From Methylobacterium sp. WSM2598 (GTDB lineage Bacteria > Pseudomonadota > Alphaproteobacteria > Rhizobiales > Beijerinckiaceae), in NCBI RefSeq assembly GCF_000379105.1, contig NZ_KB900609.1, positions 5,792,763-5,856,762 on the forward strand: DNA of 64,000 nucleotides, written 5' to 3'. This document shows, piece after piece, positions 1-16,149 of the stretch; positions within the stretch are counted from its first letter, which is position 1, and each line of letters opens with the position of its first letter. The notes below the pieces were generated by a model. The model did no database searches, was not told where the DNA came from, and saw only the letters and a list, made by a program, of their open reading frames with translations. The translations under genes were made by a program, and so were the position numbers.

Positions 1-228
1 CACCTCGCGCCGGGTCCCGTCGAGGACCAGCGAGGCGTCGAAGCCGCTCGCGTCGGCCCCGAGCCCCGACCAGGGCGGCGGCGCGGCGAGGGGCTCGTCG
101 GCCCAGGAGGCCGCGAGGAGCCGGGCGCAGGCCACGGCCTCCTCGCGCGCGGCCGGCGGGAACCCCGCCGCCGCCGCCACCGCCCGCAGGGTCCGGGCGG
201 CGGCCTCGAAGCGGGTGGCGGCGCCCAT
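1..228 (-). CDS. Partial gene at left edge; possible ABBA-type (tryptophan dimethylallyltransferase-like) enzyme of the RiPP locus
   Basis: Only the first 76 codons are present; the gene runs off the left edge. It starts with ATG at 228, and the start shares one base with the stop of the gene before it (TGATG), so the two are probably translationally coupled. The visible part is an Ala/Arg-rich helical N-terminus followed by a stretch reading PPPWSGLGADASGFDASLVL and then a DG..RREV tail. From memory, bacterial ABBA-fold aromatic prenyltransferases (Trp_DMAT family) carry a similar W-S-x-x-(S/T)DD-x-S-x-F-(E)-x-S-L segment near the N-terminus. This is a weak inference from one short motif. 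If right, the cluster product would be a prenylated peptide. It could equally be an unknown tailoring protein. Position and coupling show directly only that it belongs to the leftward operon. Confidence 0.45.
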   Translation of the reverse strand, partial: MGAATRFEAAARTLRAVAAAAGFPPAAREEAVACARLLAASWADEPLAAPPPWSGLGADASGFDASLVLDGTRREV

Positions 229-593
229 CAGCCCTCGACCCGGCACACGACCCGGCCGAGCCGGACCGGCGCCGCCTCGGCCGAGGCGGGCGCCGCCTCC
301 GCCGCGGGCGCCTCGCCCGGGACGCCCTCCGGCAGGCGGCGCAGCTCCACCGTGAGGAGGTTGACGGGATCGGGACAGTTCAGCACCACCCGGTCGGCCG
401 GCCCCCAGGGCACGGCGCCGCCGAATTGCAGCATCAGGATCGCCGGATGGGCGGCGTGGTAGAGGTAGCCGCACATCCCGGCCGTGTTGCGGGCGCTGAC
501 GGGCAGCACGTCGCCGACCCGGTGCCCGGCATTGCAGGTGCCCCGGATGCAGGTCACGGTCGCCTGGACCGGATGTCCCTTCTCGCGGTTCAT
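228..593 (-). CDS. TIGR04076 family protein of the RiPP locus
   Basis: This is a 121-residue protein. Residues 10-85 show the pattern of the TIGR04076 family: TCNAGHRVGD near residue 20, then a Gly-Met-Cys-Gly-Tyr segment, PAILMLQFGG, a Pro-Trp, and LNCPDPVN near residue 75. Conserved cysteines and the Gly/His pattern are present, but the biochemical role of the family is not established to my knowledge. The C-terminal 35 residues are Ala/Pro/Glu-rich and look like a disordered tail. The gene lies 70 bases after the radical SAM gene and overlaps the next gene by one base, so all three are probably one leftward operon. I infer a role in peptide maturation from context alone. Confidence 0.75.
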   Translation of the reverse strand: MNREKGHPVQATVTCIRGTCNAGHRVGDVLPVSARNTAGMCGYLYHAAHPAILMLQFGGAVPWGPADRVVLNCPDPVNLLTVELRRLPEGVPGEAPAAEAAPASAEAAPVRLGRVVCRVEG

Positions 594-663
594 CGGGCCG
601 CCTTTCGTGTCACGCGGGATCCGGCCGTCGCCAAGCGACCAGGTCCCCGAACCGAGCCTCGCG

Positions 664-2619
664 TCAGAGGCGCAGGGTCTCGCCGTGCTCCGGCACCAGG
701 ACGGGCCGCTCCGTGCCGACGCGCAGCGCGCCGAGGCTGAAGGCCGGCAAGGGGGAGGCCGGCGACTCGGCCGCCGCGCGCCGCGCGAGGCTCTGCTCCC
801 GCTCGGCGATCAGGGCCTCGCCCAGCGCCGGCTCGGTGACCAGCGAGACGTAGCGCTGCTCGTGGCGAAGCACGAAGCCGAGCGAGACGAGGTGGCCGAG
901 GCGCTCGCGATCCGCCTCCGGCACCCGCGGCTCGGAGACCGGCATCTGCACCGAATCGAGCACCCGGGCGAGGTCCGGCGCGAGCAGGCAGGCGCCGACC
1001 TTGGCGCAGCGCCGCGTGTCGGTGACCTGGAGCCAGCCGCCGCCGAGGCGCTGCAGGCTCAGCCGCGGCGGCCCGCCCGGGGCCGCCCAAGCCTCGGTCC
1101 AGGCCTGGACCTGCCGGTCGAGGGCCGCCACGAGGTCGGGCGCGTCCATGAACTCGGTGCGGTACTCGCCGAAGAAGTGCAGGGCGATCCGCTCCGCGTA
1201 ATCCCCGTAGAGTTCGTAATAGGCCTGCCAGGCCCGCAGGCCGGTGATGCCGAACCGCTCCGGCTCGTTGTGGTAGGGCGAGTAGCGGGAGATCCGGATC
1301 GGGCCCCAGCGGGTCGGCGGCCGCAGGTGCTCCAGGAGCGGCAGCAGCGGCAGCATCTCCTCGTAATCCGCGCGCGTCTCGCCCGGGATCGCGGTCAGGA
1401 TGTTCCAGATCACGCGCAGGGAGCGGGTCGTGGCGTCGCGCAGGACGCGGATGTTGTCGATCCCGCTCACCCCCTTGTCCATGCTCTTGAGGATCCGGGT
1501 CGAGAAGGACTCGATCCCGGGCTGGATCTCGAAGATGCCGGCGCGCACGAAGCGGTCGAGATCCTCGGGCCGGATCGGCGACTTCACCTCGTAGCTGAGC
1601 GCGCAGGGCGTGCCGCGCTCGGCGAGCGCGTCGAGCACGCCCTTCGGGAAGTCCTTCGCCATGATGTTGTCGCTGGCGTAGAACTTTCCGACCCCGTAGC
1701 GCCCGATCAGTCCCTCGAGCTCGCTCACGACCCGCTCCGGGGACTTGGCGCGGTACTGCGTGCCGGGGAAGTTGTAGCCGCAGAAGGTGCAGGTCTTCTT
1801 GTCGCCCCACCAGCAGCCGCGCGAGGATTCGAAGATCAGGAAGTGCGGCGCCGTCGCGGCGACCGGGTCGGTCGCCTTCAGGGGTGCGAGTTCGGCGAAG
1901 TAATCGTCGTAATCGGGGGCCGGCACGTCGTCGAGGCGGGGAATGCCGCGCCCGCGGATGATCCGGGTCGCGGGCAGGGTGCCCTCGTCCACGAGCCTGC
2001 GGCAGAAGCGCGGGAACTCGATGTCCGACTCGCCCGAGAACACGGCGTCGAACACGCCCGTCAGCTCGATCAGCGCGCTGCCGATCGGCTCCGCCGCGTT
2101 GGCGCCCCCCAGCACCGTCACGATGTCGGGCCGCAGCCGCTTGACCTCGCGGGCGAGGGCGATGCTCGCCATGGTCTGCTGCACCATGGTCGAGAAGCCG
2201 ACGATGCGCGGCGCGCCGGCCACGAGCCGCCGCGCCGTCTCGGCGATGAAGTCCGGAATGGCCGCGACGACGCGGGCCACCTCCTCGTCCTCCGGCGCGG
2301 CCGGGCGCACGAGCTGGCGCAGCTTGGCGTCGGCCTCCGCGTCCTGCCGCAGCAGGGCGAGGATGCGCTCCAGCGCCTCCGCCTTCTCCGGGAAGGCTGC
2401 CCCGAGGAAGATCGCCTCGCCGATCAGCGTGCGCGAGCCGGCGATGCGGGCGCAGAGATCGAACCCGAACCGAGCCGCGAATGCCAGATTTGCGTAGTGA
2501 ACCCGCGCGGAGAGGCCAGCCCGTCGCAGAGCCGGCACAAGAACGCTCGGCCCGAGGGTCGGAATGCCGGGATAGAGAACCGGCGGCACCACCAGAAGAA
2601 CCTGTTCCGAGAATGTCAC
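664..2619 (-). CDS. B12-binding/radical SAM peptide maturation protein (RiPP maturation radical SAM protein 1 family)
   Basis: This 651-residue protein has an N-terminal cobalamin-binding-like Rossmann region (residues 1-235; VPPVLYPGIPTLG at the start and VGFSTMVQQTMASIALAR near 140). The radical SAM domain follows, with cysteines C269, C277 and C280 in the unusual CX7CX2C spacing (SSRGCWW...CTFCGYN) that marks the family TIGR03975. Further family signatures are FRAKSPERV-like RAKSPERVVSEL, IQPGIESFSTRIL and the GPIRISRYSPYHNEPE segment near 460. The enzyme would bind a [4Fe-4S] cluster and SAM, and probably cobalamin, and modify a ribosomal precursor peptide (C-methylation or a related radical reaction; the exact reaction is not deducible). 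I chose the GTG at 2617-2619, which has a GGAG about ten bases upstream. An export system of the NHLP type lies divergently next to it, which supports the RiPP role. Confidence 0.88.
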   Translation of the reverse strand: MTFSEQVLLVVPPVLYPGIPTLGPSVLVPALRRAGLSARVHYANLAFAARFGFDLCARIAGSRTLIGEAIFLGAAFPEKAEALERILALLRQDAEADAKLRQLVRPAAPEDEEVARVVAAIPDFIAETARRLVAGAPRIVGFSTMVQQTMASIALAREVKRLRPDIVTVLGGANAAEPIGSALIELTGVFDAVFSGESDIEFPRFCRRLVDEGTLPATRIIRGRGIPRLDDVPAPDYDDYFAELAPLKATDPVAATAPHFLIFESSRGCWWGDKKTCTFCGYNFPGTQYRAKSPERVVSELEGLIGRYGVGKFYASDNIMAKDFPKGVLDALAERGTPCALSYEVKSPIRPEDLDRFVRAGIFEIQPGIESFSTRILKSMDKGVSGIDNIRVLRDATTRSLRVIWNILTAIPGETRADYEEMLPLLPLLEHLRPPTRWGPIRISRYSPYHNEPERFGITGLRAWQAYYELYGDYAERIALHFFGEYRTEFMDAPDLVAALDRQVQAWTEAWAAPGGPPRLSLQRLGGGWLQVTDTRRCAKVGACLLAPDLARVLDSVQMPVSEPRVPEADRERLGHLVSLGFVLRHEQRYVSLVTEPALGEALIAEREQSLARRAAAESPASPLPAFSLGALRVGTERPVLVPEHGETLRL

Positions 2620-3495: not shown

Positions 3496-4764
3496 ATGAG
3501 TTCATCCCCGCAGCGGGCATTCCGGCCGATCGCGCTCGAGCGCGCCGCCTCGCCCGAGCAGCTCGACCACCTCGTCCGCATCACCAAGCCCGCCGACTGG
3601 ATCCTCGCCGGCACGGTGGCGCTGCTGCTCGTCTCGGCCCTGACCTGGAGCGTGGTCGGGCGCGTGCCGACGCGCGCGGCCGGCGAGGGCATCCTGGTGA
3701 GCGTCGGCGGGCGCGTGGTCGACGCGGTCTCGGCCGCCTCGGGCCGGCTCGCGGCGATCGAGGTGGCGGCCGGCGACCGGGTCGTCCAGGGCCAGCCGGT
3801 GGCCCGCATCGCCCAGACCGACATCGAGGAGCGCCACCGCGCCGCCGTCGAGGTCCATCGCGAGCGCGAGCGCGAGCACGCCACCCTGCGGGCCAAGGTC
3901 AAGGACGAACTCGCCGCCAAGGCCCGCAACTTCGCCAAGTTGGAGGAGGCCTTCGACCAGATCGTCCACGCCACCGATCAGCGCATCGAGTATCTGTCGA
4001 CCGAGGTAAGGAACCTGGAGACGCTGCTCGGCAAGGGCATCACCACGCGCCGGGTGGTCGAGGACCGGCGCCGCGAGCTGACGGAGGCGCGCCAGCGGCG
4101 CGAGGACGCGCAGAACGAGGTGCTGAAGCTGCGCACCCAGAAGACCGATCTGGAGACCCAGCGCGAGCGCGAATTGCAGGACTCGCAGTTCCGCCTCAAC
4201 GATACCCGCCGCCAGATGGAGCAGCTCGCCGGGGAGCTCGGCCGCAACACCCAGGTGCTCAGCCCGATCGACGGGCGGGTCCTGGAGGTCAAGGTCTCGC
4301 CGGGCTCCGTCCTCACGGTCGGCATGCCGGTGATCGCGGTCGAGAGCGAGGGCAAGGCGCTGGAGGCGGTGGTCTACATCCCGGCCGACAAGGGCAAGAC
4401 CGTGAAGCCCGGCATGGAGACCCGGCTCGAGCCCAGCACCGTCAAGCGCGAGGAATACGGCACCCTGGTCGGCAGCGTGGTGTCGATCTCCGACTTCCCG
4501 ATCACCCCACAGGGCATGGCGGCGGTGCTGCACAACGACCGCCTGGTGAGCCGCTTCTCGCAGGAGGGCGCGCCCTACGCGGCCCTGGTGCGGCTGCAGC
4601 CCGACCCCGCGACGGCGAGCGGCTACGCCTGGGCGGTGGGGCGGGGCCCGGACCTGCGCCTGACCAGCGGCACGCTGGTGCGGGCCGAGATCACCACGCG
4701 CCAGCACCGCCCGCTCGACCTCGTCGTGCCGATGCTCAAGCGCCTCACCGGCCTCGCCGGGTAA
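3496..4764 (+). CDS. HlyD-type membrane fusion protein, NHLP/NHLM bacteriocin export system
   Basis: This 422-residue periplasmic adaptor links the inner-membrane ABC exporters to the outer membrane. The N-terminal ALERAASPEQLDHLV..TKPADW segment, a single membrane helix at about residues 35-55, and VGRVPTRAAGEGILVSVGG directly after it match the TIGR03794 family of NHLM bacteriocin secretion proteins. A lipoyl-like half domain (about 60-105), a long coiled coil (about 110-255, with many Glu/Arg/Gln) and the second lipoyl half with a beta-barrel (about 258-410) follow in the usual HlyD order. The start at 3496 is inferred from the N-terminal match; it lies in a tandem-repeat array without a clear ribosome binding site. 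The next gene begins 6 bases after the stop, so the export genes form one operon. Confidence 0.88.
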   Translation: MSSSPQRAFRPIALERAASPEQLDHLVRITKPADWILAGTVALLLVSALTWSVVGRVPTRAAGEGILVSVGGRVVDAVSAASGRLAAIEVAAGDRVVQGQPVARIAQTDIEERHRAAVEVHREREREHATLRAKVKDELAAKARNFAKLEEAFDQIVHATDQRIEYLSTEVRNLETLLGKGITTRRVVEDRRRELTEARQRREDAQNEVLKLRTQKTDLETQRERELQDSQFRLNDTRRQMEQLAGELGRNTQVLSPIDGRVLEVKVSPGSVLTVGMPVIAVESEGKALEAVVYIPADKGKTVKPGMETRLEPSTVKREEYGTLVGSVVSISDFPITPQGMAAVLHNDRLVSRFSQEGAPYAALVRLQPDPATASGYAWAVGRGPDLRLTSGTLVRAEITTRQHRPLDLVVPMLKRLTGLAG

Positions 4765-4770
4765 AGCCGG

Positions 4771-6954
4771 ATGAGCGCCGCCGCCCTGCGCCGCCTGCTG
4801 CCCTGGCCCGGCCGGGGCCGCCCGCCCGCCACCCCGACCGTGCTTCAGATGGAGGCGGTGGAGTGCGGGGCCGCGGCGCTCGCCATGGTGCTCGCCCATC
4901 ACGGCGCCTTCGTGCCCCTGGAGCAGCTGCGGGTGGCCTGCGGGGTCTCCCGCGACGGCAGCAAGGCCAGCAACATCGTCAAGGCGGCGCGGGGCTTCGG
5001 GCTCGCCGCCAAGGGCTTCCGCAAGGAGCCGACGACCCTGCACGACCTGCCGATGCCTTGCATCATCCACTGGAACTTCAACCACTTCGTGGTGCTGGAG
5101 GGGATCCGCGGGGAGCACGCCTTCATCAACGACCCGGCCATGGGGCGCCGCCGCGTCACCATGCAGGAACTCGACCTCGCCTTCACGGGCGTCGCCCTCG
5201 CCATGGAGCCGACCGAGGAGTTCCGCCGGATCGGCCGCAAGCCGCAGGGCTTCCGGCTGCTCCTGCGCGAACTCGGCGCCTCCCGCGCGGCGGTCGGCCT
5301 GCTCGTCGCGGTGAGCCTCGCGCTGATCGTCCCGGGCATCCTGATCCCGGGCTTCACCAAGATCTTCATCGACGAGATCCTGATCCAGAACACCCCGGGC
5401 TGGCTGACGCCGCTGCTGATCGGGATGGGCCTCACCGCCCTGTTCCGGGCCGGCGTCACCGCCCTGCAGCTGTCGCTGATGACGCGGCTGCAGACGAAGC
5501 TCGCCGTGGTGATGACCAGCCGCTTCCTCTGGCACGTCCTCGCGCTGCCGATGGAGTTCTTCGCCCAGCGCCACGCCGGCGACATCGCCAACCGGGTCTC
5601 CACCAACGAGCAGATCGCGCGCCTGCTCTCGGGCGGCCTCGTCAGCAACGCGCTCTCCCTGACCTCCCTGGTCTTCTTCGCCGCCGCGATGGCGGTCTAC
5701 GACCTGCTCCTGGCGGTGATCGGCGTGGCGCTGTCCCTGCTCAACGTGCTCGCCCTCCACCTGATCGGGCGGCGCCGCGAGGATCTCAGCCGCAGCCTCG
5801 CCATGGAGCGCGGCAAGCTCCTGGGCAGCACGATCGGGGCGGTGCGCACCATCGAGACCCTCAAGGCGAGCGGGCTGGAGGACGAGGCCTTCGGGCACTG
5901 GGCCGGCATCCAGGCCCGCGCCCTCAACGCCGAGCAGGAGCTCGGCGCCACCTCGGCCTGGCTCGACACGGTGCCGACCCTGCTCTCCGGCCTCACCACG
6001 GCGGCGATCCTGGGCATCGGCGGCCTGCGGGTCACCGAGGGTTCGCTGACCCTCGGCGGCCTCATCGCCTTCCAGTCGCTGATGGCGAGCTTCTCCGAGC
6101 CGATCACGGCCCTGGTCGGCCAGATCGGCAGCATCCAGATCATCAAGGGCGGGCTGGAGCGCCTCGACGACGTCTACAACTACCCGGTCGAGCGGCCGGA
6201 GCCGGATCCCGCCCTGCCGCCGCCGCCGCCGCGGCTCGTCGGGCGGGTCGAACTGGTCGGCGTGTCCTTCGGCTACGCGATCCTGGAGCCGCCCCTGCTG
6301 CAGGATGTCTCGATCACCATCGAGCCGGGCAGCCGCGTCGCCCTGGTCGGCCTCTCGGGGAGCGGCAAGTCGACCCTCGGGCGGCTGATCTGCGGGCTCA
6401 ACCGGCCCTGGTCGGGGGAGGTGCGCCTCGACGGGCGGCGCCTCGCCGACATCCCGCCGGAGGTCTTCGCCCAGTCGGTCGCCTACGTCGACCAGGACAT
6501 CGTCCTGTTCGAGGGCAGCGTGCGGGACAACCTCACCCTCTGGGACCCGACCGTGCCCGAGCCCGACCTCTCGCTGGCCCTCAAGGACGCGGCGGTCCAC
6601 GGCGAGGTCGCGACGCGGCCCGGCAATTACGACGGCCACGTGCTGGAGGGCGGCGCGAATTTCAGCGGCGGCCAGCGCCAGCGCATCGAGATCGCCCGCG
6701 CCCTGGTGCAGAACCCCTCCGTCCTCGTCCTCGACGAGGCCACGGCCGCCCTCGATCCGGTGACGGAGAAGATCATCGACGACAACCTGAGGCGGCGCGG
6801 CTGCACCTGCATCATCATCGCGCACCGGCTCAGCACGATCCGCGACTGCGACGAGATCATCGTGCTGGAGCGCGGGCGCATCGCCGAGCGCGGCCGGCAC
6901 GAGGAACTCCTCGCCCGGGAGGGCGCCTACGCGGCGCTCCTGGCCCAGTCGTGA
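4771..6954 (+). CDS. NHLP-type peptide exporter ABC permease/ATPase with N-terminal C39 leader peptidase
   Basis: This 727-residue half-transporter cleaves the leader of a peptide and exports the core. Residues 20-140 form a C39 peptidase with catalytic C32 (VLQMEAVECG), H105 (NFNHFVVLEG) and D121 (INDPAMG). The membrane domain lies between about 170 and 450. The ATPase follows, with Walker A GLSGSGKST at 527-535, signature FSGGQRQR at 631-638, Walker B VLVLDEAT ending near 658 and the H-loop AHRLST. Length and order match TIGR03796. C39 enzymes cut after a double-Gly-type motif, so the precursor should carry one at its leader-core junction. The stop overlaps the GTG start of the second exporter (GTGA), so the two are probably coupled and may form a heterodimer. 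Confidence 0.92.
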   Translation: MSAAALRRLLPWPGRGRPPATPTVLQMEAVECGAAALAMVLAHHGAFVPLEQLRVACGVSRDGSKASNIVKAARGFGLAAKGFRKEPTTLHDLPMPCIIHWNFNHFVVLEGIRGEHAFINDPAMGRRRVTMQELDLAFTGVALAMEPTEEFRRIGRKPQGFRLLLRELGASRAAVGLLVAVSLALIVPGILIPGFTKIFIDEILIQNTPGWLTPLLIGMGLTALFRAGVTALQLSLMTRLQTKLAVVMTSRFLWHVLALPMEFFAQRHAGDIANRVSTNEQIARLLSGGLVSNALSLTSLVFFAAAMAVYDLLLAVIGVALSLLNVLALHLIGRRREDLSRSLAMERGKLLGSTIGAVRTIETLKASGLEDEAFGHWAGIQARALNAEQELGATSAWLDTVPTLLSGLTTAAILGIGGLRVTEGSLTLGGLIAFQSLMASFSEPITALVGQIGSIQIIKGGLERLDDVYNYPVERPEPDPALPPPPPRLVGRVELVGVSFGYAILEPPLLQDVSITIEPGSRVALVGLSGSGKSTLGRLICGLNRPWSGEVRLDGRRLADIPPEVFAQSVAYVDQDIVLFEGSVRDNLTLWDPTVPEPDLSLALKDAAVHGEVATRPGNYDGHVLEGGANFSGGQRQRIEIARALVQNPSVLVLDEATAALDPVTEKIIDDNLRRRGCTCIIIAHRLSTIRDCDEIIVLERGRIAERGRHEELLAREGAYAALLAQS

Positions 6955-9932
6955 GCGAGCCGCTTGCGAAGGGCGGGCTCGCCCTGGTCGGGCCGGCCGG
7001 CGCCCAAGCGCCGCTCCCCGCGGCGCCAGTTCCCGCCCAAGCGCCGCTCCCCGCGGCGCCAGTTCCCGCCGAGGCGCCGCTCCCCGCCGCGGCGCCAGTT
7101 CCCGCCGAGGCGCCTGCCCAACCCCTCGACGGGCGCCGGCCGGAGCGCCTCGCCTCCCTCGGCGCGCCGCTCGTCGTGGCGAGCGGGCACGCCGACCTGT
7201 TCGCGCTGCGCAGCCGCGACGGCGCCGTCGCGGGCCCGCGCCGGCACCTGCTGCGAATCGAGAGCGGCGGGATCATCCTGCCGGTCCCCGCCGACGCGGG
7301 CGCGGGCGGCGAGCGCCTGGAGATCACCGCGGTCGGCACGCCCGGCACCGCGGTGCGCGAGGCGGCGCAGGCCGAGATCGGGCCCCTCTGCGAGGGCTGG
7401 GTCCTGGGCCTCGCGGCGCTGGTCGCGGGTCCGCACCCGGCCTGGGACATCCGGGAGGCCGCTTCCGGCGAGGCGCTGGAGCCCGGGGAGCGGCGGCGGG
7501 GGCCGGCCCGGTCCCTGCGCTGGGTCGTCGTCGAGGAGGGGAGCGCGGCGATCGCCGGCCAGGCCCCCGCCTACCGGCCGGGCGACCCGCCGGCCCCCCT
7601 CGGGGCCGGCCTCTGGGCCCAGGCCGGGCCGGAGGGCTGCCGGCTCTCACCCTGCGCGGCCCCGGAGGGCGACCTCCTGGCCCTGGCCGTCGACCGCTTC
7701 CACCGCGCCGCCGCCGCCGCCCTGCACGGGGAGGCCGCCGGCCAGCCGACCCGCGACGCCGCGCGGCTCGCCCGCCGCGCCGACCTCGACGCCGCCCGCG
7801 CGGCCGAGCTGTTCGGGCGCCTCGGGAGCATCGTGGTGCGCCGGGACGCCCCGCCCGCCGCGGTCGATCCCGAGGACCCGCTGATGGCGGCCTGCGCCCT
7901 CGTGGCCGGGACCATGGCGGCGCCGCTCACCCGCCCGGCCGGCCGGGTGCGGACCGCGCGGGACTACCGCGACGTGGTCGAGATCGCCCGCGCCTCGCGG
8001 CTGCGGGTCCGCCGCGTCCTGCTGCGGGCGGAGTGGTGGCGGCAGGATGCCGGGCCGCTCCTGGCGTGGCGGGGCGAGGCGGGCGCGCCCGTGGCGCTCC
8101 TGCGCGAGCGCCGCGCCTACCTGATGGTGGATCCCGCCACCGGGGAGCGGCGGCGGGTCGACGCGGCGCTCGCCGCCGAGCTCGGCCCGGAGGCGGCGGG
8201 CTTCTACCCGACGCTGCCCGGCCGCGCCCTGAGCTTCCGCGACCTCCTCGCCTTCGCGGCCCGGCGGGCCAGGGGCAACCTCGCCTCGGTCGCGGTGCCG
8301 GCGGTGCTGATGGGGCTCCTCACCCTGGTCGTGCCGCTGATCACCCAGGCGCTCGTCAATTCCGCGATCCCGCGCAGCGAACTCGACCAGATCACGGTCT
8401 GCGCGATCGCGCTCGCGGTCACGGCGCTGGCGGCGGCCGCCGTGCAGGCCGCCGAGAGCCTCGCGATGCTGCGCCTGGAGGGGCTGATCGACTGGACGCT
8501 GCAGGCCGCGATGATCGACCGGCTGCTGCGCCTGCGCGCCGCCCTGTTCCGCGACCACACCGTGGGCGACCTCGTCGACCGGGCGATGGGGATCGACGCG
8601 GTGCGCCGCCTCCTCACCGGGCGCACCCTGCGCAGCCTGCTCGCCGGGATGTTCGGCCTGTTCAGCATCGCCCTGATGCTGGTCTACGACCCCGTGCTGG
8701 CGCTGATCGCGGTCGCGCTCGCGCTCCTGCGCGGGGTCCTGATCCTGGCGGCGAGCGGGTTGCGCCTCTACCACGAGAGCCGCGCCTTCAACGGCCAGGG
8801 CCGGGTTCAGGGCTTCGTGCTCCAGCTCTTCGCCGGGATCGGCAAGCTGCGGGTGGCCGGCGCCACCGTGCGGGCGCTCGCGGTGTGGTCGCGGCTGTTC
8901 ACGGAGCAGAAGGGCCACTTCCTGGCGGCCCAGCGGATCGCCAACGGGCTCAGCATCGCGGAGACCGCCCTCCCGACGCTCGCGACGCTCGCGATCTTCG
9001 CCGCGGCCTCGACCCTCGGCAGCACGCTGACCCAGAATCTCGGCGCCTTCCTCGGCTTCTTCGCCGCCTTCGGCCAGACGATGGGGGCGATCGGGGCCTT
9101 CGCGGCGGGCCTGAGCGAGGCGCTGGTGGCGATCCCGCACCTCACGCGGATGCGGCCGCTCCTCGCCGCGGAGGCGGAGATCGCCGACGACCGCAAGCCC
9201 CCGGGCGACCTCTCGGGCGCGATCGAGGTCTCGCGCCTGACCTTCCGCTACGGCGCCTCCGGCCCGCCCGTGCTCGACGCGGTGTCGCTGCGGATCGCGG
9301 CCGGCGAGTACGTGGCGATCGTCGGGCCCTCCGGCAGCGGCAAATCCTCGCTCCTGCGCCTGCTGCTCGGCTTCGAGGCGCCGGAATCCGGCGCCGTCTT
9401 CTACGACGGCAAGGCGCTCGACACCCTCGACGTCAGCGCCGTGCGCCGCCAGCTCGGGGTCGTGCTCCAGAACGGCCGGCTCACCACCGGCAGCCTCTAC
9501 GAGAATATCTGCGGCGGCGTGCAGCTCCCCCTGGAGCAGGCCTGGGAGGCGGCCCGGATGGCGGGGCTGGAGGGGGACATCCGGGCGATGCCGATGGGCA
9601 TGCACACGGTGGTGGCCGAGGGGGTGAACACGCTCTCGGGAGGCCAGCGCCAGCGCCTGCTGATCGCCCGCGCCATCGCGCGGCGGCCGCGGATCCTGCT
9701 CTTCGACGAGGCGACGAGCGCCCTCGACAACCGCTCGCAGGCGGTGGTGAGCGCCTCGCTCGGCGCCCTCAACGTCACCCGGATCGTGATCGCCCACCGG
9801 CTGAGCACGGTGCGGGAGGCCGACCGGATCGTCGTGCTGGCCGAGGGGCGCATCGTCCAGTCCGGCACCTTCGACGACCTCGCCGCCGCGCCCGGCCTGT
9901 TCGCCGACTTCGCCCGGCGCCAGCTCCTGTAG
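6951..9932 (+). CDS. Second NHLP-type ABC exporter permease/ATPase, without peptidase
   Basis: This 993-residue protein starts with the GTG that overlaps the stop of the first exporter. It has no C39 catalytic residues. The first 45 residues contain a Pro/Ala-rich tandem repeat (listed separately). Residues of about 45-440 form a large cytosolic N-terminal region of unknown role, typical of TIGR03797 (NHLM_micro_ABC2). The membrane domain spans about 445-730, and the ATPase has Walker A GPSGSGKSS at 792-800, signature LSGGQRQR at 895-902, Walker B FDEAT at 918-922 and AHRLST. Known NHLP clusters normally encode this partner next to the peptidase-type exporter, so I infer a heterodimeric pump. 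A reading frame continues far upstream through the previous gene but is only a GC-bias artefact. Confidence 0.9.
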   Translation: MSEPLAKGGLALVGPAGAQAPLPAAPVPAQAPLPAAPVPAEAPLPAAAPVPAEAPAQPLDGRRPERLASLGAPLVVASGHADLFALRSRDGAVAGPRRHLLRIESGGIILPVPADAGAGGERLEITAVGTPGTAVREAAQAEIGPLCEGWVLGLAALVAGPHPAWDIREAASGEALEPGERRRGPARSLRWVVVEEGSAAIAGQAPAYRPGDPPAPLGAGLWAQAGPEGCRLSPCAAPEGDLLALAVDRFHRAAAAALHGEAAGQPTRDAARLARRADLDAARAAELFGRLGSIVVRRDAPPAAVDPEDPLMAACALVAGTMAAPLTRPAGRVRTARDYRDVVEIARASRLRVRRVLLRAEWWRQDAGPLLAWRGEAGAPVALLRERRAYLMVDPATGERRRVDAALAAELGPEAAGFYPTLPGRALSFRDLLAFAARRARGNLASVAVPAVLMGLLTLVVPLITQALVNSAIPRSELDQITVCAIALAVTALAAAAVQAAESLAMLRLEGLIDWTLQAAMIDRLLRLRAALFRDHTVGDLVDRAMGIDAVRRLLTGRTLRSLLAGMFGLFSIALMLVYDPVLALIAVALALLRGVLILAASGLRLYHESRAFNGQGRVQGFVLQLFAGIGKLRVAGATVRALAVWSRLFTEQKGHFLAAQRIANGLSIAETALPTLATLAIFAAASTLGSTLTQNLGAFLGFFAAFGQTMGAIGAFAAGLSEALVAIPHLTRMRPLLAAEAEIADDRKPPGDLSGAIEVSRLTFRYGASGPPVLDAVSLRIAAGEYVAIVGPSGSGKSSLLRLLLGFEAPESGAVFYDGKALDTLDVSAVRRQLGVVLQNGRLTTGSLYENICGGVQLPLEQAWEAARMAGLEGDIRAMPMGMHTVVAEGVNTLSGGQRQRLLIARAIARRPRILLFDEATSALDNRSQAVVSASLGALNVTRIVIAHRLSTVREADRIVVLAEGRIVQSGTFDDLAAAPGLFADFARRQLL
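7005..7106 (+). repeat. Three tandem 33/36-bp repeats encoding a Pro/Ala-rich linker
   Basis: Units at 7005-7037, 7038-7070 and 7071-7106 encode QAPLPAAPVPA, QAPLPAAPVPA and EAPLPAAAPVPA, followed by a partial unit. The first two are identical at DNA level and the third has one extra codon. Frame is kept, so copy number could vary without disrupting the exporter. Confidence 0.9.
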
Positions 9933-9943
9933 GACAGCCCGCG

Positions 9944-10477
9944 ATGCGCAAGGTCCTCTACCTGTTCGGGATTCTCACCGACGAGGACGTCGCCTGGATC
10001 GCCCGGACCGCGACCCGGCGCGCGCTGCGCGACGGCGAGGTGCTGATCGCCGAGGGCGACCGCACCCGATCCCTGATCCTGATCCTCGACGGCGTGCTGG
10101 CCGTCACCGCGGAGGGGCACGGCGAGATCGCGCGGCTCGGCGTCGGCGAGGTGGTGGGCGAGGTGTCGCTGGTCGATTCCGCGCCGGCCTCGGCGACGAT
10201 CACGGCCCGCGGTCCGGGCGCGGCGCTCTTCCTCGACCGGGAGGTGCTGCAGCGCCGGCTCGACGCCGATACCGGCTTCGCCGCGCGCTTCTACCGGGCG
10301 CTGGCGATGTTCCTGGCCGACCGCCTGCGCGCGGCCCGCCCGCCGCGGCCCGGGATCGGCCTCGCCGACGACGGCGCCCTCTCGCCCGACGAGCTCGACC
10401 CCGCCATCATGGACACGGTCTTCGTGGCGGGCGAGCGCTTCAACCGCATGATCGGGCTCCTCGACGCGCGCCCGTGA
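9944..10477 (+). CDS. Small cyclic-nucleotide-binding-fold protein of the export operon
   Basis: This 177-residue protein consists mainly of one cNMP-binding (CAP-like) beta-barrel: RDGEVLIAEGDRTRSLILIL near residue 30, LGVGEVVGEVSLVDSAPASA near 65-85, and a following helix. It has no helix-turn-helix. In the phosphate-binding cassette the Gly-Glu is present, but the Arg that normally binds the cyclic phosphate (P-R-x-A) is replaced by Ala-Ser-Ala, so classical cAMP/cGMP binding is doubtful. It starts 11 bases after the second exporter, so it is part of the export operon. Similar proteins accompany other NHLP systems as far as I recall. Its role could be sensing or scaffolding. Confidence 0.78.
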   Translation: MRKVLYLFGILTDEDVAWIARTATRRALRDGEVLIAEGDRTRSLILILDGVLAVTAEGHGEIARLGVGEVVGEVSLVDSAPASATITARGPGAALFLDREVLQRRLDADTGFAARFYRALAMFLADRLRAARPPRPGIGLADDGALSPDELDPAIMDTVFVAGERFNRMIGLLDARP

Positions 10478-13354: not shown

Positions 13355-14602
13355 TCAGGCCGGGGAGGCGGCCGAGTGCAGAAGGGCGGGGGAGGCGGCC
13401 TCGCGCCGCCGCAGGCCCGCCCGCATCAGCGCATGCATGGCTTCGTAGGTGCGATCCCACGAACCGCCCGCCAGGTGCCGGTCCACCCGCTCCAGCCACG
13501 CCTGCCGCGGCTGGGCCAGCAGCGCCTCGATCGAGAGCGCCACGCTGCGCGGCGAGTCGGCGATCGCCACGAGACCGGCCTCGCCGTAGTCGCGCAGCAC
13601 GTCCAGGATCGGCGTCGAGACCACGCGCAGGCCCGCGGCCAGGAATTCCGGCGTCTTGGTCGGGCTGATGAACCGCGTCGCCTCGTTGCGCGCGAAGGGC
13701 ATCAGCCCGAGATCCCAGTGGCGCAGGTAGTCGGGCAGGGCCGCGTAGGGTTTGGAGCCGAGCCAGTGGATGTTGGCCCGCCGCGGCAGGCTCTCCGGGT
13801 CGATCTTCACCACCGGCCCGATCATCACGACCTGCCAGTCCGGCCGCAGATCCGCGAGCGCGCCGAGGAGGTCGCGGTCGAGGCGCTCGTCGATGACGCC
13901 GAAGAAGCCGATGCGGGGATGCGGGATCGCGGCCTGGTCGCCGGGGTCGGGCCGGGCGGCGTCGCGGGCTTGGCGGAAATGGGCCGCGTCGACCGAGGAG
14001 GGGAAGCAGTGGACGCTGGGATGCGCCCCGCGCTTGGCCTCGTAGAGGCTGCGCCCGCCCGTGAAGACGAGGTCGGCCCGGGACAGGAGCTCGGCCTCCT
14101 GGGCGATCAGGTCGGGCGAGGCGCCGCGGAAGGCGGAGAGCTCGTCCATGTTGTCGTAGACGGTGAGGTCGCGCGGCAGCTCGGCGGAGACGCTGATCGC
14201 GGCGGGGGTGTAGTACCAGAACACCCGGGCGGCGGCCTCGCGCCGGCGCAGGTGGTCGCCGATGAGCTGGGTCTGGATCGGGTCGGCCGCGCAGGCGCGG
14301 GCGGGGTCGACGACCGGCACGGCGACGTCGATGCCCGGGGCGACCGCCTCGACCCGGAGCCGGTCGCTGCCGCCGGGCTCGAAGACCGGCTCCTCGACGA
14401 AGAGCACGTCGAAGTGCCGGGCGGCGCGGCTGAGCAGGTGCTGCGGCCGCTGCCAGACGAAGGCCCAGCGCAGGTGGGAGAAGCACACCAGCAGGCCGCG
14501 CGCCGCGCCCTCCGGCGGCAGCAAAGGGGGTTCCACAGGCTGGTCGTCCAAGAGCCCCGGCGCAGCCCCCGTGATGCTGCTGGTCAGGTGCATATCGTTC
14601 AC
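13355..14602 (-). CDS. Glycosyltransferase family 1-like protein
   Basis: This protein of about 415 residues begins (after a short variable leader) with LLVCFSHLRWAFVWQRPQHL, a start common in bacterial GT-B glycosyltransferases that sit next to glf. Later motifs are PRIGFFGVIDERLD, VVMIGPVVKID, IHWLGSKPYAALPDYL, and the nucleotide-sugar-binding region FISPTKTPEFLAAGLRVVST with its Glu. No membrane helix is visible, so it is cytosolic. I chose GTG at 14602 because AAGGG lies about 8 bases upstream; TTG at 14647 and ATG at 14593 are alternatives. The gene leads a leftward operon with glf and a glycoside hydrolase. Donor could be UDP-galactofuranose, but this is inference. Confidence 0.85.
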   Translation of the reverse strand: MNDMHLTSSITGAAPGLLDDQPVEPPLLPPEGAARGLLVCFSHLRWAFVWQRPQHLLSRAARHFDVLFVEEPVFEPGGSDRLRVEAVAPGIDVAVPVVDPARACAADPIQTQLIGDHLRRREAAARVFWYYTPAAISVSAELPRDLTVYDNMDELSAFRGASPDLIAQEAELLSRADLVFTGGRSLYEAKRGAHPSVHCFPSSVDAAHFRQARDAARPDPGDQAAIPHPRIGFFGVIDERLDRDLLGALADLRPDWQVVMIGPVVKIDPESLPRRANIHWLGSKPYAALPDYLRHWDLGLMPFARNEATRFISPTKTPEFLAAGLRVVSTPILDVLRDYGEAGLVAIADSPRSVALSIEALLAQPRQAWLERVDRHLAGGSWDRTYEAMHALMRAGLRRREAASPALLHSAASPA

Positions 14603-14970
14603 GTCGTGCCCTTCATGCTGGTCCCGCAGGCCGACCCTCAACGCCAAAGCCGAAGGCTCGGTTCTGCGAGCGGCCAGATCTATTTTTCCCGGACCGATTA
14701 ACGCAGTTGAATGTGGATGTGCTGGCTTCGGCGCAGCCGAAGAAGTCTCTTAGCCAAGGTCGATTTATGTTTATTTTGAGCCGTATCTGCGGGATCAGAT
14801 CTTTCCGGTCAGCATCGCGGAACGGTGCGGCGGCGCACCGATTTGACAGGGTCGCGGGCGATCGGGCCCGGTGCGGGGCGTCGGGCGATGCTTGAACGGG
14901 GGGATGGCGGCAGCGGGCGCACCGGCCGGACCGCGGCGCCCGTGCCCGTCCCCGCGGGGCCGGCGGGCCC
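14603..14970. promoter_or_regulatory. Divergent intergenic region of the glycan locus
   Basis: This 368-bp region separates the leftward glycosyltransferase operon from the rightward GH1-like/ABC operon. Its middle (about 14680-14800) is much AT-richer than the surroundings and probably holds both promoters. A perfect small hairpin (CTTCGGC at 14726-14732, GCCGAAG at 14736-14742) lies within it. I see no gene and no convincing known operator. Confidence 0.4.
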
Positions 14971-16149
14971 ATGATCTGCCCGCCCATGACCTGCCCACCG
15001 ACGAGGGCGGCCGCGCCCGGTTCGCCCTTCGGGAGCGTGTTCCTGGGCGGCTTCGAGTGCTCCACGCATCGCCGCGCCGACGGGCGGCGCCTCGACCTCC
15101 TGGCGGCGACCGGGCACGACCGGCACGCGCTCGCCGATTACCGCGCCCTGGCGCGGCACGGCCTCCTGGCCGCCCGCGACGGCCTGCGCTGGCACCGCAT
15201 CGAGGCGGAGCCCGGGCGCTATGACTGGTCGAGCGCCCTGCCGCTGCTGGAGGCGGCGCGCGAGGCCGGGATGCGGGTGATCTGGGACCTCTGCCATTAC
15301 GGCTGGCCCGACGATCTCGACATCTGGTCGGAGGCCTTCGTGAGCCGCTTCGCCGCCTTCGCGGCCGCGGCGGCGCGGCAGGTGCGGGCGGTCTCCGGCG
15401 CGCCCCCGTTCCTGTGCCCGGTGAACGAGATCTCCTACTGGGCCTGGGCCGGCGGCGAGGTCGGCCGGATCGGGCCCTGCGCGACCGGCTGCGGGGCGGC
15501 GCTGAAGCGCCAGCTCGTGCGCGCTTCCCTGGCGGCGACCCGGGCGGTGCGCGAGGTCGAGCCGGAGGCCCGGTTCCTGCACGCCGAGCCGGCGATCCAC
15601 GTGGTCGGCGGCCCCGAGGCGGGCAGCGCGGCGGCGGCGGCCGCCTACTGGGAGGTGCAGTACGAGGCGCTCGACATGGCGAGCGGCCGGCTCGCCCCCG
15701 ACCTCGGCGGCGGTCCGGACGCGCTCGACGTGGTGGGCCTCAACTTCTACCCGGACAACCAGTGGGTCCATGGCGGCGGCACCGTCCCGCTCGGCCACCA
15801 CGCCTACCGGCCCTTCCGGGCCCTCCTCGCCGAGGCGCATGCGCGCTACGGCCGGCCGCTCCTGGTCGCCGAGACGGGGGCGGAGGGCAGCGCGCGGCCG
15901 GCCTGGCTCCACTACGTCTGCGGCGAGGTGCGGGCGGCGCGCGCCGCGGGCGTGCCGGTGCTCGGGATCTGCCTCTACCCGATCCTCGACTATCCGGGCT
16001 GGGAGAACGAGCGGCCCTGCGCGGTGGGGCTCCTCTCGGCCCCCGACGAGGCGGGCGCGCGCCGGACGGACGGCCCGCTCGCCCGCGAGATCCGCGAGCA
16101 GCGGGCCCGCTTCGCCGGCTCCGCGCAGGAGGAGACCGATGCGGCCTGA
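14971..16149 (+). CDS. GH1-like glycoside hydrolase (beta-glucosidase-like)
   Basis: This 392-residue protein resembles family 1 beta-glucosidases: GGFECSTHRRADGRRLD at the start, GLRWHRIEAEPGRYDWS, WDLCHYGWPDDLDIW, PVNEISYWAWAG with the acid/base Glu, VGLNFYPDNQW and LLVAETGAEG with the nucleophile Glu. It is shorter than classical GH1 enzymes (about 450 residues), so it belongs to a divergent branch. No signal peptide is present. It overlaps the next gene (ABC exporter) by 11 bases, a strong sign of an operon. ATG 14986 is an alternative start. The likely role is processing of the glycan made or exported by the neighbouring genes. Confidence 0.75.
   Translation: MICPPMTCPPTRAAAPGSPFGSVFLGGFECSTHRRADGRRLDLLAATGHDRHALADYRALARHGLLAARDGLRWHRIEAEPGRYDWSSALPLLEAAREAGMRVIWDLCHYGWPDDLDIWSEAFVSRFAAFAAAAARQVRAVSGAPPFLCPVNEISYWAWAGGEVGRIGPCATGCGAALKRQLVRASLAATRAVREVEPEARFLHAEPAIHVVGGPEAGSAAAAAAYWEVQYEALDMASGRLAPDLGGGPDALDVVGLNFYPDNQWVHGGGTVPLGHHAYRPFRALLAEAHARYGRPLLVAETGAEGSARPAWLHYVCGEVRAARAAGVPVLGICLYPILDYPGWENERPCAVGLLSAPDEAGARRTDGPLAREIREQRARFAGSAQEETDAA

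Follow-up and report, generated by a model that had tools for sequence, protein, structure and literature searches.

Prenylated ribosomally synthesized and post-translationally modified peptides (RiPPs), prenylated lanthipeptides among them, are already known. The ABBA enzyme MppC of Moorena producens geranylates one core Trp of a class II lanthipeptide, a reaction that depends on the leader, and further putative prenylated lanthipeptide clusters, which could include relatives of the one described here, are mentioned in the same report (PMC12715784). Trp prenylation in ribosomal peptides is also described for ComQ/ComX and for the cyanobactin enzymes KgpF and AcyF (PMC10373908). Here, we describe a gene at the left edge of a 64,000-nucleotide stretch of DNA (hereafter the window; G000:C1:5792763-5856762 of the 7.67-Mb genome of Methylobacterium sp. 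WSM2598) whose product is probably an aromatic prenyltransferase of DMATS type (Trp_DMAT, ABBA fold) that tailors a RiPP. The likely target of prenylation is the C-terminal Trp of a precursor peptide encoded in the same operon. To our knowledge, ComQ is not an ABBA enzyme.

The window holds only the 5' end of the gene, 76 of its 373 codons (window positions 1-228, minus strand), and the gene continues to the left as far as L009:11107 (G000:C1:5791869). From these 76 residues, a sequence-only reading had proposed an ABBA-type prenyltransferase on the strength of a W-S-x-x-x-x-D-x-S-x-F-D-x-S-L pattern and of operon coupling. The motif is present, as W-S-G-L-G-A-D-A-S-G-F-D-A-S-L at residues 53-67, and by itself is not diagnostic of a family; the 76 residues alone match no Pfam family at E<=10 (hmmscan) and give one chance match in NCBIfam (E 1.3). 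Because no Pfam match is obtained from the visible residues, the proposal was correct but went beyond what the window alone could establish. The complete gene was recovered from the host genome (L009:11107-12228, minus strand, 373 amino acids), and its product, compared with PF11991 as the reading had suggested, matches Trp_DMAT over residues 10-211 with E 1.5e-8 and 34.8 bits, above the gathering score of 25. No second Pfam family reaches E<=1 with the full-length protein, and hence the match to another family that the reading had named as contrary evidence did not appear. In the context of the full gene the motif gains meaning, because D64 within it aligns on the catalytic Glu106 of TleC in a pairwise alignment.

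An ortholog is found in a metagenome-assembled genome (MAG) of Rhodoplanes sp., in which the W, S, D, S, D, S and L of the motif are retained and the F is replaced by Cys. This protein also matches PF11991 (E 2e-9, 37.7 bits), and its one other Pfam row, DUF4268, has an E of 0.1 and lies below the model cut-off. The two prenyltransferases share 216 of 372 aligned residues (58%). Their genes differ at 114, 99 and 198 first, second and third codon positions, respectively, with nonsynonymous (dN) and synonymous (dS) divergence of 0.37 and 1.07, the latter near saturation, and on this comparison the gene is under purifying selection for its protein. Long plus-strand frames that span window positions 1-740 were dismissed as by-products of high G+C content because the minus-strand frames have homologs.

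Homology to enzymes of solved structure is extensive. Among sequences of the PDB, phmmer returned 11 rows for the Methylobacterium protein, comprising nine distinct DMATS-type prenyltransferases (E 4.5e-28 to 7.2e-11) and two MutS sequences at E ~0.5. The best matches are TleC (4yzj, 4.5e-28), MpnD (4yl7, 5.6e-28) and CymD (6os3, 2e-25), to which residues 21-342, 4-342 and 7-348 align, respectively, such that homology covers most of the length of the protein. The same nine DMATS sequences were recovered with the Rhodoplanes ortholog (best E 1.8e-28), plus one antibody chain at 0.043. A single-sequence AlphaFold2 model of the ortholog was too poor for a fold search, with a mean predicted local distance difference test score (pLDDT) of 38.6 and a predicted template modelling score (pTM) of 0.29, and the ABBA fold, a ten-strand barrel whose lack the reading had named as further contrary evidence, is predicted from homology to the solved structures. 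Taken together, the edge protein is almost certainly an enzyme of the Trp_DMAT/DMATS family.

For TleC, PMC4786772 identifies Glu106 as the catalytic residue, Arg119, Lys187, Arg248 and Arg378 as phosphate anchors, and Tyr252, Tyr317 and Tyr382 as the tyrosine shield. In the pairwise alignment with TleC, R77 corresponds to R119, K147 to K187, R204 to R248, Y208 to Y252 and Y335 to Y382, and the same residues are conserved in the ortholog. In this alignment, both orthologs therefore retain three of the four phosphate anchors and two of the three shield tyrosines.

The genes around the prenyltransferase bear out the radical SAM RiPP operon that the sequence-only reading had also proposed and extend it: outside the window are a further pair of B12-type radical SAM genes, a LanB dehydratase split into two genes, and a precursor that ends in Trp. 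On the minus strand, the order of transcription is rSAM_ocin_1 (rSAM1), TIGR04076, prenyltransferase, rSAM2, precursor, rSAM3, a small protein, Lant_dehydr_C and Lant_dehydr_N, and the divergent plus-strand genes encode an NHLP HlyD protein, two ABC transporter proteins (ABC1 and ABC2) and a TIGR03896-like protein. The start of the prenyltransferase gene overlaps the TIGR04076 stop by one base (TGATG), and its 3' end overlaps rSAM2 by 16 bases.

The precursor is a peptide of 116 amino acids (L009:8541-8891, minus strand) composed of a leader with a VAGG double-Gly site and a core; it is encoded beside a peptidase-containing ABC exporter and has a counterpart in the second genus. The conserved leader reads GLVITDxGGNYYxLRPExLAQxKMPDEDVxKLKSG and matches neither NHLP/Nif11 nor any other family of Pfam or NCBIfam at E<=1. 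The Rhodoplanes precursor likewise matches no Pfam family at E<=5, and in NCBIfam only one chance repeat model at 0.2. After VAGG the core consists of 49 residues in Methylobacterium and 44 in Rhodoplanes, and the two cores are widely divergent except for the tail KVM(S/T)STVMCPW. With gap columns scored as different and two sequences compared, the tail is identical in 10 of its 11 columns, against 10 of 39 for the remainder of the core (one-sided Fisher test, p 1.5e-4); the leader is identical in 42 of 67 columns. No aromatic residue of the core is invariant apart from the C-terminal Trp, neither core contains Tyr, and an invariant Cys precedes the Trp by two residues.

Downstream in the operon, LanB, with its glutamylation and elimination domains, is encoded as two adjacent minus-strand genes, Lant_dehydr_N at L009:2443-5025 and Lant_dehydr_C at L009:5022-5954, both above the gathering score (PF04738 4e-18 and PF14028 8.1e-13, respectively), and NCBIfam TIGR03891 is likewise above its cut-off. 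LanC was found neither in the host genome (0/1, 93.04% complete) nor in the Rhodoplanes MAG (0/1, completeness not given), in a search that gave a signal in 2 of 14 control genomes and exceeded the cut-off in one of these. Because LanC was found in neither host genome, we do not assume that lanthionines are formed.

How, then, does this cluster compare with known systems? Similar to MppC, an ABBA-type enzyme is clustered with a dehydrating lanthipeptide enzyme. However, the partner of MppC is the class II synthetase MppM, its substrate carries a Nif11-like leader, and MppC itself is said to belong to the same family as the cyanobactin enzymes (PMC12715784), whereas the cluster described here combines a split class I LanB pair, a leader without a family match, three radical SAM genes and a Trp_DMAT enzyme. 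ComQ, KgpF and AcyF are also of other enzyme families, the edge protein matching only Trp_DMAT in Pfam. With NHLP-type RiPP clusters that contain rSAM_ocin_1 the locus shares TIGR03975, TIGR03794, TIGR03796 and TIGR03797, all above their cut-offs; it differs from them in a leader that lacks an NHLP/Nif11 match and in the addition of a DMATS enzyme. Finally, Lant_dehydr_N and Lant_dehydr_C are shared with the LanB of class I lanthipeptides and thiopeptides, in contrast to which LanC was not found in either host and one Lant_dehydr_C gene is present among the operon genes scanned.

On balance, we favor the view that the locus defines a new RiPP group, in which a leader-guided precursor would have its KVM(S/T)STVMCPW tail dehydrated by a LanC-less split LanB, be modified by three B12-type radical SAM enzymes and be prenylated on its C-terminal Trp by a DMATS enzyme recruited from small-indole chemistry. 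The product would then be a dehydrated and methylated lipopeptide that carries its lipid C-terminally. The precursor would be recognized through its conserved leader, and the split LanB pair would dehydrate Ser/Thr of the tail. Without LanC, these residues would stay dehydrated, or the Cys could add by itself or via an unknown cyclase. The three B12-type radical SAM enzymes may add methyl groups or other modifications. In the prenylation step, for which we infer both substrate and donor, the enzyme would transfer the prenyl group of dimethylallyl diphosphate (DMAPP), or of a longer donor, to the indole of the C-terminal Trp, and an Asp would take the position close to the indole nitrogen where a Glu is usually found. 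Cleavage by ABC1 after VAGG, the double Gly of the leader, would follow, and the NHLP exporter would then release a core of ~44-49 residues. That a Trp within a peptide should serve as acceptor is precedented, because MppC geranylates Trp in a lanthipeptide with a Nif11 leader (PMC12715784).

Several observations weigh against this interpretation. First, the sole NCBIfam match of the full protein, to the DMATS family model TIGR03429 (E 1.6e-19), scores below the cut-off of that model, at 70.5 bits against 163.85 (57.4 bits for the ortholog). However, this model is labeled "subfamily", and the score therefore counts against membership of that subfamily and not against PF11991. Second, the active site departs from that of TleC. 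The catalytic Glu106 is replaced by Asp in both orthologs (D64, and D68 in the ortholog), a conservative change in a locally ungapped alignment, and Asp could plausibly replace the catalytic Glu functionally. Tyr317 of TleC aligns with His267 and Arg378 with Ala331 (Cys in the ortholog), while an invariant Arg329 is found two residues away; both mismatches may reflect alignment error, given the proximity of Arg329 and the gaps around His267. Third, C-methylation by rSAM2 and rSAM3 is weakly based, because both score below every curated NCBIfam cut-off. Fourth, two distinct clusters were found in all, and so the link between the Trp and the enzyme comes without the negative control of enzyme-free clusters. 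Finally, the closest characterized relatives act on substrates other than ribosomal peptides, whereas the edge gene sits in a RiPP operon. CymD acts on Trp for cyclomarin, supplying prenyl-Trp to a non-ribosomal pathway. TleC and MpnD prenylate indolactam (PMC4786772).

The best surviving alternative, which we nevertheless consider unlikely, is that the enzyme is a true DMATS with a different acceptor in the peptide, such as a His, the thiol of the Cys in MCPW, or the N-terminus exposed when the leader is removed. The invariant Cys close to the Trp is consistent with this, and the E106D and Y317H differences from TleC in the pairwise alignment could reflect a different acceptor. Nevertheless, TleC and MpnD are characterized as prenylating an indole (PMC4786772), Tyr is absent from both cores, and the C-terminal Trp stands as the sole invariant aromatic residue. 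Less likely still is that the enzyme produces a small molecule, prenyl-Trp or some other, and leaves the peptide untouched despite its place in the operon. The small indoles used by TleC and MpnD, as well as the role of CymD, fit such a function, but the gene sits amid RiPP maturation genes, overlaps both of its neighbors and keeps its place in a second genus at 58% identity, and there is no small-molecule pathway gene among those scanned from L009:2443 to window position 10477. It is very improbable that the protein is a degenerate DMATS retained in a non-catalytic role, such as that of a partner that scaffolds the precursor, as the loss of the catalytic Glu to Asp, of one shield Tyr to His and of one aligned Arg might hint, because most phosphate anchors and shield tyrosines are kept in both orthologs, the gene is under purifying selection and Asp plausibly does the work of Glu.

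If prenylation of the C-terminal Trp is correct, a single ribosomal peptide would undergo dehydration by LanB, modification by B12 radical SAM enzymes and prenylation by a DMATS enzyme. Searches of open-licence PubMed Central papers returned no report of this combination, nor of a RiPP cluster in which B12 radical SAM genes accompany an enzyme of the Trp_DMAT family, which is weak evidence of novelty. The solved DMATS enzymes closest to this one use small indoles as substrates, so a DMATS guided to a peptide by its leader would illustrate how the family moves to peptides, and it would provide a tool to attach a lipid to a chosen C-terminal Trp. Because the precursor pair is conserved in two genera, the prediction is directly testable by co-expression.

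We searched additional genomes, plasmids and viral contigs for relatives of the enzyme and, by way of the precursor, radical SAM and LanB-N genes, for related clusters that lack it and could test the Trp link; none of the latter kind was recognized in the scans described here. A pattern scan of genome contigs with the enzyme, which reaches close relatives only, returned one locus, L011 of the Rhodoplanes sp. MAG, whose best segment is 57% identical. Gene order and orientation at L011 are the same for the 11 genes compared besides the precursor, namely ABC2, ABC1, HlyD and rSAM1 through Lant_dehydr_N; the TIGR03896-like gene is outside these 11. In the order (397 genomes), genus (111), class (385) and family (296) scans, the best first-look candidates per genome were scored (at most 11, 17, 2 and 6, respectively), and absences are therefore not absolute. 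On that understanding, the enzyme was detected in two of the 111 genomes of the genus, which belong to the species of the host, and in 1 of 296 genomes drawn from the family of the Rhodoplanes MAG, that being the MAG itself. The host genome was the only positive among 61 genomes searched with the enzyme and among 398 genomes of the phylum searched with PF11991. At E<=1e-40, rSAM2 was likewise found in 1 of 385 class genomes, again the host, at both rSAM2 and rSAM3. The precursor alignment matched in 3 of 397 order genomes, the host and two others at E 0.005-0.007, which lie inside long open frames and were taken as chance. Viral contigs yielded no relatives of the enzyme, and plasmid searches for LanB-N and for the precursor gave none. 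The same block in two distant hosts, together with its near absence in the samples between them, suggests that it spread by horizontal transfer.

Two plasmid matches of other kinds were seen. The enzyme search detected one distant Trp_DMAT gene (29.3% over 67% of the query) on plasmid4 of Calothrix sp. NIES-4101 (L012:7407-8495), which is annotated as hypothetical and is separated by one gene from a flavin monooxygenase gene; of its 14 annotated features, 5 proteins were scanned, and no RiPP gene was recognized among these. The radical SAM search (E limit 1e-30) returned one gene in Rhizobium phaseoli, where none of the 19 features shown is named as a RiPP gene.

Of the three radical SAM proteins, rSAM1 (rSAM_ocin_1; window positions 664-2619, minus strand) is 651 amino acids long, is annotated as a RiPP maturation radical SAM C-methyltransferase and matches TIGR03975 at 1.8e-198 (660.8 bits, cut-off 281.85), with Pfam Radical_SAM above the gathering score. 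The other two, rSAM2 (716 amino acids, L009:8972-11122, minus strand) and rSAM3 (705 amino acids, L009:6353-8470, minus strand), match TIGR03975 below its cut-off (E 3.6e-27 and 9.3e-31, respectively). Against the gathering score of 32.1 for the Pfam B12-binding domain, rSAM2 lies above at 33.3, and rSAM1 and rSAM3 lie below at 24.9 and 17.9. The usual radical SAM cluster motif is CX3CX2C; in both species it takes the form CX7CX2C in rSAM1 and CX4CX2C in rSAM2 and rSAM3. The latter two are paralogs (L011:11119-13284 and 13840-15912 in Rhodoplanes), and from their sequences they may represent a new radical SAM family.

Between rSAM1 and the prenyltransferase lies the gene for a TIGR04076 family protein of 121 amino acids (window positions 228-593, minus strand; NCBIfam TIGR04076 6e-14, 52.4 bits, cut-off 33). 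Its ortholog occupies the same place in Rhodoplanes, where it missed the 1e-10 profile limit and yet is 63% identical to the window protein. The small conserved protein between rSAM3 and Lant_dehydr_C (L009:5959-6372, minus strand) gave no confident match in family-model searches including Pfam and NCBIfam, and is identical to its Rhodoplanes counterpart (L011:15923-16378) at 63 of 123 aligned positions (51%).

The export genes are all on the plus strand of the window. They encode the HlyD-type secretion protein of the NHLP bacteriocin system at positions 3496-4764 (TIGR03794 1.8e-89, 300.6 bits, cut-off 156.2), the NHLP export ABC transporter with a peptidase domain, ABC1, at 4771-6954 (TIGR03796 1076.1 bits, cut-off 853.3) and the second transporter subunit, ABC2, at 6960-9932, with an approximate start (TIGR03797 6.7e-279, 927.1 bits, cut-off 709.4). 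These are followed at 9944-10477 by a protein like the C-terminal part of TIGR03896 (cyc_nuc_ocin, bacteriocin-type transport-associated), which at 7.6e-33 and 114.2 bits is below the cut-off of 161.05; it covers only positions 139-315 of the 317 in the model and resembles a short form.
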